From NCBI RefSeq assembly GCF_017356245.1, contig NZ_JAFMZZ010000001.1, positions 1,755,698-1,819,697 of the forward strand: 64,000 nucleotides of DNA, read 5' to 3'. Source of the DNA: Bordetella petrii (GTDB lineage Bacteria; Pseudomonadota; Gammaproteobacteria; Burkholderiales; Burkholderiaceae_B). Under the pieces are notes generated by a model. That model had not been told where the DNA came from. It did not search any database and saw only the letters and a list, made by a program, of their open reading frames with translations. Made by a program: the position numbers and the translations under genes. This document shows positions 37,050 through 38,429 of this stretch, one piece after another. Every line of letters starts with the position of its first letter. Position 1 is the first letter of the stretch.

Positions 37050-37120
37050 GGCGACACTATGCGGCGGCGGCCGGCTGCGATGTTTCGATGCAGCTCGAAA
37101 GATCGGGCTTGATTCGCGAC

Positions 37121-37139
37121 CAGGTGTCTGACTCCGCAG
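37121..37139 (+). repeat. Palindromic intergenic repeat, copy B, left half split by the IS
   Basis: CAGGTGTCTGACTCCGCAG. Joined to GTGCCAGACACCG at 38358-38370 it restores one repeat of 32 bp that differs at only three positions, without gaps, from the intact copy at 48361-48392. The last two bases, AG (CT on the minus strand), are the core dinucleotide of the insertion. Confidence 0.85.
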
Positions 37140-37154
37140 ATACCGTCTTGGCGG

Positions 37155-38138
37155 TCAAGGGCTTAAGGCGTAATCAGAGCGATATGGAGTGCGGCTCTTG
37201 AGTACGCCGAAGCATAAGTGAGCGAGCTTTCGCATGGCCGCGCCCAGCGCGGCCATTTTGCTTTTACCCGCGTTGAGCAAGCGAGCGTAAAGCGCCTGTA
37301 TATGCGGGTTGTGCCGTACCGCGACGACCGCTGCCATGTAGAGCGTGGCCCGTACTCGCGCCGGGCCGGTCTTGGATAGACGAGGCCGGCCATTCAGGCT
37401 GCTGCCCGATTGGCGCTGCACCGGTACAACGCCTAGATAAGCGGCCAGCGCCTGCGGTGAGTCGATGCGCCGGTTATGCATGATCGACAGAATGGCATTG
37501 CCGGTCTGCGGGCCAACGGCCGGGATACTGCTCAATAGCTCCCGGTCTCCCTTCAGGTCGGGGTGGCGATCGATGTGGTCGTCAATGGCGCGCTCCAGGC
37601 GCTTGATCTCTTCACGCAGGAACGCCACGGTCTTGGCGATCGAACCGGCCACCAGCTCCGGAGAGCGGCCAAACTCGCTTTTCTCCTGGCGGTTGAGCTC
37701 GCGTTGCAGGTCTTTGGCCAAGGCTTCACGCCGGGCCAGCAGTGCACGCAATTGCCGCGCATGCAGCGGCGCGGGCTGCCAAGCCGGTGGGCGCACTACC
37801 TGGCCGTAGCGGGCCAGCATGTAGCTGTCGATCTCATCGGTTTTCGAGCGCACCGCCAAGGCGCGGGCAAAGTCGCGTGCCTGTGCCGGATTGATCATCG
37901 AAACCGTGGTTCCTGCGTCGTGCAATGCCGTGCCGGCCTGCTCATGGTAGGGGCCGGTCGGCTCAAGCACGGCGTGCAATTGCTCCGGTGTAGCGCCTTG
38001 CTTGGCGCACCAGCCCACCAAGGCCTGGATGCCCGCGGCCGTGTTGGGCACCACTTTGGTCTTGCGCTTGTCGCCTTCGGCGCTCAGCAAGGCACAATTG
38101 AGCTTCGCCTTGGAGACGTCAATTCCTAGAAAAAACAT
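37155..38138 (-). CDS. IS110 family transposase (DEDD recombinase)
   Basis: 327 residues. The RuvC-like N-terminal domain carries the four acidic residues Asp7 (GIDVSK), Glu59 (LEPTG), Asp101 and Asp104 (SKTDEIDSYML). A coiled-coil-like region spans about 125-190. The C-terminal Tnp_20 domain (IPAVGPQTGNAILS, LGVVPVQRQSGSSLNG) holds the candidate nucleophilic serine at 244 or 246. All key residues are intact, so the enzyme may be active. IS110 recombinases use a bridge RNA to pair donor and target DNA. The stop codon overlaps the -35 hexamer proposed for the circle-junction promoter. Confidence 0.95.
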   Translation of the reverse strand: MFFLGIDVSKAKLNCALLSAEGDKRKTKVVPNTAAGIQALVGWCAKQGATPEQLHAVLEPTGPYHEQAGTALHDAGTTVSMINPAQARDFARALAVRSKTDEIDSYMLARYGQVVRPPAWQPAPLHARQLRALLARREALAKDLQRELNRQEKSEFGRSPELVAGSIAKTVAFLREEIKRLERAIDDHIDRHPDLKGDRELLSSIPAVGPQTGNAILSIMHNRRIDSPQALAAYLGVVPVQRQSGSSLNGRPRLSKTGPARVRATLYMAAVVAVRHNPHIQALYARLLNAGKSKMAALGAAMRKLAHLCFGVLKSRTPYRSDYALSP

Positions 38139-38172
38139 AGACTTGGGCTCCTCAAAAAGAATCCCCTCAACC

Positions 38173-38340
38173 CACTGTGCCCACTTACCTTGTACATGCA
38201 GGGTCCTGGCCCTAGGCTACCGTTCAGTGTTCAGCTGGCTTACAGGGGGCGGTTCCGGGGCTTCATCTGCGGAGCAAAGTCCACGCTTTCGGTGCCAGAA
38301 CAAGCTCACCGGAACCGCTGTGGTGATAGCTAATCACCAC
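38173..38340 (-). ncRNA. Predicted IS110 bridge RNA
   Basis: Non-coding, read on the minus strand upstream of the transposase. It starts with a hairpin GTGGTGAT-TAGCT-ATCACCAC (38340-38320). Next a 10-bp stem (38318-38309 with 38258-38249) closes a 50-nt loop: its 5' side has TCTGGCACC (38299-38291) and its 3' side CTCCGCAG (38274-38267). These match the left and right halves of the target repeat around the CT core. A second stem (CACTG 38229-38225 with CAGTG 38177-38173) closes a loop with ACGGTA (38223-38218) and TACAAG (38194-38189), matching the element's own right and left ends. This is the layout known for bridge RNAs. Length is about 168 nt. Folding was done by eye. Confidence 0.8.
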
Positions 38341-38357
38341 AAGTGCCAAGATACAAG

Positions 38358-38370
38358 GTGCCAGACACCG
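38358..38370 (+). repeat. Palindromic intergenic repeat, copy B, right half
   Basis: GTGCCAGACACCG, the half of the repeat that was separated from 37121-37139 by the insertion. It is followed by about 28 bp of unique DNA and then by the intact copy C. Confidence 0.8.
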
Positions 38371-38398
38371 TACGGTTAAGGCAGTCGCTGCACACTTC

Positions 38399-38429
38399 GG
38401 TGTCTGACACCCTGCGGGAGTCAGACACC
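38399..38429. repeat. Palindromic intergenic repeat, copy C
   Basis: Perfect 10-bp arms GGTGTCTGAC and GTCAGACACC around an 11-nt centre ACCCTGCGGGA. All 31 bp are identical to copy D at 44179-44209. A further degenerate arm pair (GAGACACCCGGGAGTCAGAC, from 38434) follows directly, so the repeats come in tandem pairs. It lies between the IS element and the end of the aromatic hydroxylase gene. Confidence 0.88.

Follow-up and report, generated by a model that had tools for sequence, protein, structure and literature searches.

The non-coding segment at 38175..38342 on the minus strand of the window (the whole 64 kb stretch of DNA that was analysed) is, judging from its sequence, predicted fold and guide complementarity, almost certainly a bridge RNA, and the IS110-group element to which it belongs is probably IS1663 or closely related to it. 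The earlier note on this DNA had placed a bridge RNA on the minus strand upstream of an IS110 transposase, and this was borne out by the fold, by covariation, by a covariance model (R1) and by the guides. On sequence alone, the mechanism of IS621 very likely extends to this Bordetella element, and guide complementarity explains the presence of the element in a genome-wide hairpin repeat.

A complete IS110-group element with a long non-coding left end

The complete insertion sequence occupies 37138-38357 of the window and is read, like all of its features, on the minus strand. Its gene (37155..38138) encodes a transposase (the bridge recombinase of the IS110 group) of 327 aa, with an ATG start and a TGA stop. 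The protein contains both IS110 domains (Pfam PF01548 and PF02371) and scores 216.3 bits against the NCBIfam model NF033542, 'IS110 family RNA-guided transposase', for which the cut-off is 140. A sequence search of the PDB with the transposase returned two distinct chains, IS621 (E 1.8e-58) and ISCro4 (E 5.5e-60), and residues D7, E59, D101, D104 and S244 lie within D-E-D-D-S motifs that aligned with both. The five residues were assigned as catalytic by their place in the aligned motifs and not by converted PDB chain numbers, and the functions of their IS621 counterparts are those given in the available text of PMC11208158.

The element is bounded by CT cores on the left (38356..38357), where other copies have the same junction, and on the right (37138..37139). 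Between these cores and the gene lie a non-coding left end (LE) of 217 nt (38139..38355) and a right end (RE) of 15 nt, which runs from the stop codon to the core (37140..37154). This layout, in which a long non-coding region precedes the transposase gene and a short RE follows it, is that of the IS110 group. Membership of the IS1111 group, in which the RNA and the non-coding region lie downstream of the gene, was considered and rejected, since just 15 nt are found downstream here and the RNA is upstream.

Once RE and LE join in a circle, a predicted sigma-70-like junction promoter would form from a -35 box, TTGACC (37153..37158), and a -10 box, TATCTT (38348..38353), at a spacing of 17. It agrees with the consensus at 9 of 12 bases, a count read from the sequence without a shuffled control. 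Across 19 joined ends the same score was 8 or 9 in 13 and 6 or 7 in 6.

The left end is predicted to fold as a bridge RNA

The extent given for the bridge RNA is that of the model match, and its ends are approximate. It starts with a 5' hairpin (38320..38340) that was recognised from the fold and whose TAGCTA apex is conserved in the alignment. This is followed by the target-binding stem-loop (38249..38318), which consists of an outer stem, an internal loop and an inner hairpin (38276-38289), and by the donor-binding loop, the inner hairpin of which is helix 5 (38200..38213). The RNA thus has the 5' stem-loop and two stem-loops with internal loops that characterise bridge RNAs, with the exception of the outer stem of the donor loop, which does not resolve in the alignment.

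The alignment and model R1 comprise the window element and 12 relatives, found in Bordetella-like genomes and as far afield as Pseudomonas, Salinisphaera and Oceanobacter; IS621 was excluded. The RNAalifold consensus of these 13 sequences contains 22 pairs, of which 20 show compensatory changes, and leaves the left and right target guides (LTG and RTG) unpaired in one internal loop. In the target-binding stem-loop, compensatory change was found in 14 of 14 pairs of helix 3 and in 4 of 4 pairs of helix 4, while in helix 5 100% of cells were paired, with two of the four pairs changed on both sides and two invariant. With the 5' hairpin added, the structure has 30 pairs, 23 of which show change on both sides, and 91.2% of cells are paired compared to 37-48% when it is slid by one to three columns. 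The outer pairs of the 5' hairpin are poorly aligned (62.5% of cells). Folded by itself, the window sequence has a minimum energy of -64.6 kcal/mol (z -2.07), a moderate gain in that 5 of 200 shuffles were equal or better. In this fold, four bases of the LTG pair with the final bases of the RTG plus the first of the adjoining handshake dinucleotide, and the target loop is half-closed. The expectation that the fold exposes the guides therefore holds for the 13-sequence consensus, in which they are open, and only in part for the isolated minimum-energy fold, in which they are partly paired.

On the window, R1 gave a single match (38342-38175, 150.5 bits), which follows by construction since the sequence is in the training set. 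The full search set consisted of the window and 28 loci (168,024 bases, for which E-values are rough), and R1 gave 23 matches among these 29 sources, one per source. Among the matches outside the training elements is IS621 (E. coli NN5, locus L113), whose bridge RNA R1 matched over the full model length, with 28.7 bits and an E-value of 4.6e-7. Six of the 29 sources were without a match (L009, L011, L082, L004, L031 and L012), of which L004 and L031 are right-end pieces. Rfam 15 gave no matches at the gathering score in the window and, within 37100-38420, none with an E-value of 1 or less. The check with a bridge-RNA covariance model that the earlier note had proposed was passed with our own model, which also matches IS621; Rfam 15 is without a matching family.

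Four guides match the target and the ends of the element

The guides of the window element are arranged on the RNA in the order LTG, RTG, left donor guide (LDG), right donor guide (RDG). The LTG, TCTGGCACC (38291..38299), consists of TCTGGCAC and the C of the core and equals the left flank GGTGTCTGGCAC-CT, and the RTG, CTCCGCAG (38267..38274), is the reverse complement of CT-GCGGAG. In the donor loop, the LDG ACGGTA (38218..38223) equals the RE sequence ACGGTA(T)-CT, and the RDG TACAAG (38189..38194) is the reverse complement of CT-TGTA. Every letter of these four segments was found where the earlier note had put it. A point that the note blurs is that the LDG has a mismatch at the position adjoining the core on its left (G versus T).

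Our analysis adds the handshake dinucleotides, which were absent from that note. AT, which follows the RTG in the target loop (38265..38266), corresponds as reverse complement to the AT that precedes CT in the donor, and GT, which follows the RDG in the donor loop (38187..38188), corresponds likewise to the AC that precedes CT in the target; their counterparts are the handshake guides of IS621, as described in the accessible part of PMC11208158.

In a control set of 20,000 dinucleotide-shuffled versions of the RNA, the LTG 8-mer was present in 46 and the RTG 8-mer in 51, and the shorter donor guides were present more often (LDG 6-mer in 486, RDG 6-mer in 1,009). All four guides in order were found in none of the 20,000, in line with the claim that four guides in the known order are unlikely by chance.

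In related elements, guides vary together with flanks and ends

Left ends could be read by pattern at 35 loci. The LTG test included 21 of these and excluded 13 further copies of the same elements as well as L009; genome G003, which has both in-register and out-of-register copies, was represented by the in-register copy L005. When the offset was left free, LTGs matched their own left flank at 6.57 of 8 positions, compared to 4.75 for the flanks of other elements. In a fixed register the values were 6.33 and 3.47; restricting this test to a single element from each lineage (14 elements) gave 6.57 and 3.39. Addition of L078, which itself matches at 6 of 8, gave 6.32 versus 3.42 for 22 elements, and replacement of L005 by the out-of-register copy L024 gave 6.1 versus 3.42. 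In each LTG test, the observed value was reached by 0 of 100,000 permutations. Individual fits in the fixed register were weak for L070 (3/8), L059 (4/8) and L064, L054 and L066 (5/8 each).

RTGs of 19 elements matched their own right flank at 4.0 of 6 positions versus 2.17 for other flanks (0 of 100,000 permutations). Because Massilia-type elements share one RTG, the test was rerun with one element per lineage (12 elements), which gave 3.92 versus 2.3 and a value reached by 6 of 100,000 permutations. L032 and L061, which have no right end, were excluded from the RTG test, and the right flank of L036 was taken from L039, a copy in the same genome. Weak fits, with 2 of 6 right-target bases, were seen for G003, G005, L034, L049 and L053. 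The RTG was located by a conserved AGAT, and the AT handshake in those elements is therefore not independent evidence. Two loci with a candidate left end, L009 and L071, are without AGAT at the RTG position and were left unscored; R1 matched L071 at 101.8 bits and left L009 unmatched. L028 showed no left end by pattern.

The donor guides vary as well. The LDG switches between ACGG and ATGG together with ACGG and ATGG in the RE in 19 of 19 elements that have an RE, and the RDG varies as CAAG, TAAG or CGAG together with CTTG, CTTA or CTCG in the LE (the row of L059 was read by eye). Thus, as in known bridge RNAs, LTG and RTG match and covary with the target strands, while LDG and RDG match the RE-core-LE donor. 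The agreement between guide and own flank in related elements, which the earlier note's account demanded, was confirmed for the LTG in 21 and for the RTG in 19 elements, apart from the weak fits given above.

The target is an abundant REP-like hairpin

Three full copies in the window's own genome (G000) interrupt the sequence GGTGTCTGGCAC-CT-NCGGAGYCAGACACC. Uninterrupted, this target is a perfect hairpin of 29 bp (-12 kcal/mol, z -5.25). A degenerate pattern with at most 2 mismatches gave 48 + 55 target matches in the own genome and 0 in a reversed control. The target is a REP-like hairpin that is present in more than 100 copies in the genome. It is probably the published "Bor" repeat of Bordetella, for which the available text of PMC1590033 describes stem-loops of 26-30 bp that lie near coding regions, are over-represented and resemble REPs. 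We equate the two because size, REP-like shape and host fit, a comparison made by description and not by consensus sequence.

The intact sites of the own genome comprise short-loop sites, of which 7 have TCTGGCAC, 20 TCTGACAC and 30 TCAGGCAC, and 54 long-loop sites with TCTGACACC. Of the own-genome left flanks, 4/5 are exactly TCTGGCAC and one (L125) is TCTGACAC. At least four exact TCTGGCAC in five draws from the four site classes has a P of about 2e-4, the classes being of our own choosing among variants that include others. The right flanks of own copies differ, being GCGGAG or TCGGAG. In G005, where the guide is TCTGACAC, the short-loop sites include 44 with TCTGACAC and none with TCTGGCAC.

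In places, two copies of the target hairpin stand in inverted orientation with about 58 bp between their starts, as at 713805-713891 (starts 713805 and 713863), 723305-723392 and 2106112-2106198 of contig C1 of G000. Such pairs resemble the paired REPs (BIMEs) of E. coli. In relatives of the element from Deefgea, Janthinobacterium and Pseudomonas (L033, L034, L053, L055 and L056), the left flanks are GCCCAACCT or G(C/A)CCAACCT and lie, by eye, within apparent hairpin repeats, so that REP-like targets may be general in the branch that contains these genera.

The window copy carries halves of two target sites

The left half of the target hairpin at the window copy, GGTGTCTGGCAC (38358..38369), was assigned to a site between a monooxygenase gene and a TctC-receptor gene (site A), and the right half, GCGGAGTCAGACACC (37123..37137), to a different site, gene X / 363-aa ORF (site B). 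As the target is a hairpin, its arms help to pair a left with a right flank, and a copy can thereby report a rearrangement of the chromosome or of the assembly. The arms of the window copy are mismatched (left GGTGTCTGGC, right GTCAGACACC). The FAD-monooxygenase gene to its left adjoins a TctC-type receptor gene (Pfam PF03401) in G001, G004 and G006, and the two genes are about 1.7 kb apart in G003; in the own genome, the receptor gene is instead met at L003 (contig C4), a different copy, on its right side. The 363-aa ORF that lies on the right of the window copy, and for which Pfam gave no match, adjoins the counterpart of the gene flanking L125 in 5 of 5 well-matched relatives (L153-L157). 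Since the mismatch of the arms and the synteny in relatives agree, the two flanks of the window copy evidently descend from two different insertion sites, and the copy sits at a rearrangement (recombination between identical copies) or at an assembly junction.

When the flanks are re-paired, site A reads TCTGGCAC-CT-GCGGAG and agrees with guides and core at 16/16 positions, and site B reads TCTGACAC-CT-GCGGAG and agrees at 15/16. L001, a copy with matching arms, has TCTGGCAC-CT-TCGGAG (15/16). The inferred target survives because the re-paired flanks are identical to it or one base off: the flanking target given in the earlier note is correct as a sequence, but it had been read across a chimeric copy of two sites.

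In the single-contig genome G003, copy L030 has unlike half-sites (long-loop left, short-loop right), which suggests that recombination between copies does occur. In the own genome, L120, L125 and the right-end piece L004 each end exactly at a single N (G000 C1:3489997, 3408281 and 2304067), which makes a draft-assembly error a live possibility for the window copy. These three truncated copies are probably scaffold joins across the repeat, and the genome would thus have at least five left-end insertion sites. R1 found at least five bridge RNAs there (150 of about 500 candidates were scored), and three full transposases are present. L120 and L125 were considered as stand-alone (orphan) guide RNAs and rejected, as each stops at a single N and most likely marks an assembly gap.

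An exact orthologous empty site, with which the IS110-family trait of duplicating no target bases outside the core could be compared, was not found, as the relatives keep the gene pairs adjacent but not the exact hairpin. Site A has the long-loop form in G001 (L132) and another variant in G004 (L131), and for site B no hairpin was found in the examined stretches of five relatives (L153-L157). The uninterrupted repeat elsewhere in the own genome has the expected sequence.

An offset between guide and core in G003

G003, which is probably B. petrii, has six full copies of an element whose protein is 89% identical to that of the window element. L005 is fully in register, and L081 matches at 7/8 with a right flank, TCATACC, that is unlike the repeat. 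The remaining 4/6 copies (L024, L030, L079 and L080) have TCTGACACC-CT, with one extra C between the LTG match and the core; L024, the sole scored copy of these four out-of-register ones, has a fixed-register LTG score of 3/8. The TCTGACAC guide of G003 is followed by G, and the guides of the own and G005 elements are followed by C. The offset reflects either tolerated bulging or a change of the flank after insertion. We put forward only tentatively, as a somewhat doubtful extension, that bridge RNA and REP-like repeats drift together, with a guide register that is not fixed and tolerance of a one-base bulge between guide and core. If this were true, a single guide substitution could shift the element between repeat subfamilies. 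The elements of related genomes, with their slightly different guides and different site choices, constitute a natural test of mismatch and register tolerance.

Alternative readings of the left end

The structured left end might be a mere 5' leader, or a small RNA that regulates the transposase, with incidental matches to flanks and ends. The segment does border the gene on its upstream side and has a predicted fold (z -2.07), and the small RNAs of ISPpu9 were earlier thought to modulate recombinase expression, as related in the available text of Durrant et al. (PMC11208160). However, there is no reason for a leader to carry target guides that track the flanks of relatives (21 elements for the LTG, 19 for the RTG), and the donor guides vary with RE and LE; we consider this reading very improbable. 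It is scarcely credible that the ends are misplaced, such that the matching flanks belong to the element and the RNA matches itself. Although the left flank GGTGTCTGGCAC is common to the three full own copies, the same hairpin class is found uninterrupted more than 100 times, the own right flanks vary between GCGGAG and TCGGAG, L125 has TCTGACAC on its left, and the flanks are quite unlike in relatives whose ends are similar.

Insertion sites could also be chosen by hairpin or cruciform shape instead of RNA pairing, with the guide matches persisting as a relic. The target is indeed a perfect hairpin (-12 kcal/mol, z -5.25), and several IS families are drawn to REP-type repeats according to the consulted portion of PMC1525189. 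Choice by shape is nevertheless improbable, given that own copies prefer exact TCTGGCAC over commoner variants of the same repeat and that the left flanks of other elements, compared by sequence, are unlike each other and unlike the window hairpin.

Proposed mechanism and relation to known elements

For the preferred reading, a bridge RNA that guides the transposase, the following course is proposed. The element would excise and its ends join, whereby RE and LE would form the promoter TTGACC-N17-TATCTT, excision and expression being modelled on IS621. Transcription of the LE from this promoter would yield a bridge RNA some 170 nt long, made up of the 5' hairpin and the target and donor loops, which the transposase, by homology to IS621, is expected to bind. 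The target loop would then pair with both strands of TCTGGCAC-CT-GCGGAG and the donor loop with the RE-CT-LE junction. Top strands would be exchanged at CT, assisted by the handshake bases, which are present in both loops, and the element would enter the hairpin loop in one orientation. With a target repeat of more than 100 copies, the host offers many sites.

As described by Durrant et al. 2024 (PMC11208160) and Hiraizumi et al. 2024 (PMC11208158), IS621 of E. coli resembles the window element in transposase domains, catalytic motifs and the position of the bridge RNA in the left end, as well as in the 5' hairpin, target loop, donor loop, guide order, CT core, handshake bases and junction promoter. 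Furthermore, both targets are REP-type palindromes, IS621 using the REPs of E. coli (PMC1525189, consulted portion). The two differ in sequence and guides, the target of the window element is a Bordetella-type repeat, and the window system is known from its sequence. In addition, the RTG of the window element is complementary to 6 bases beyond the core, whereas that of IS621 covers 4 bases according to the sections available of PMC11208160.

Six IS1663 copies are reported for B. petrii in the available text of PMC2572626. Because G003 has six copies of the 89% identical element, the window element is probably IS1663 or close kin, an identification drawn from copy number. No description of the sequence or guides of an IS1663 bridge RNA was found among the matches listed in a search of the open-licence literature. 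The earlier note had held that this RNA and its guides are not described, and no guide RNA sequence was found in print within that search. However, IS1663 targets have already been computed in the seekRNA paper (PMC11187229), the accessible part of which reports a survey of IS110-family targets with more than 7,000 unique IS1663 insertion locations, and bridge RNAs have already been predicted for 85.7% of the IS110-group elements examined by Durrant et al. 2024 (PMC11208160, sections available).

In E. coli NN5, the left end of IS621 opens with a tandem repeat of its first 72 bp (L113, 1687-1830). The second 72-bp copy begins right after a CT inside the LTG of the first copy, and this LTG, taken as DNA, resembles a left target. 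Two joined pieces were seen in all five E. coli matches listed, of which the sequence of NN5 alone was read.
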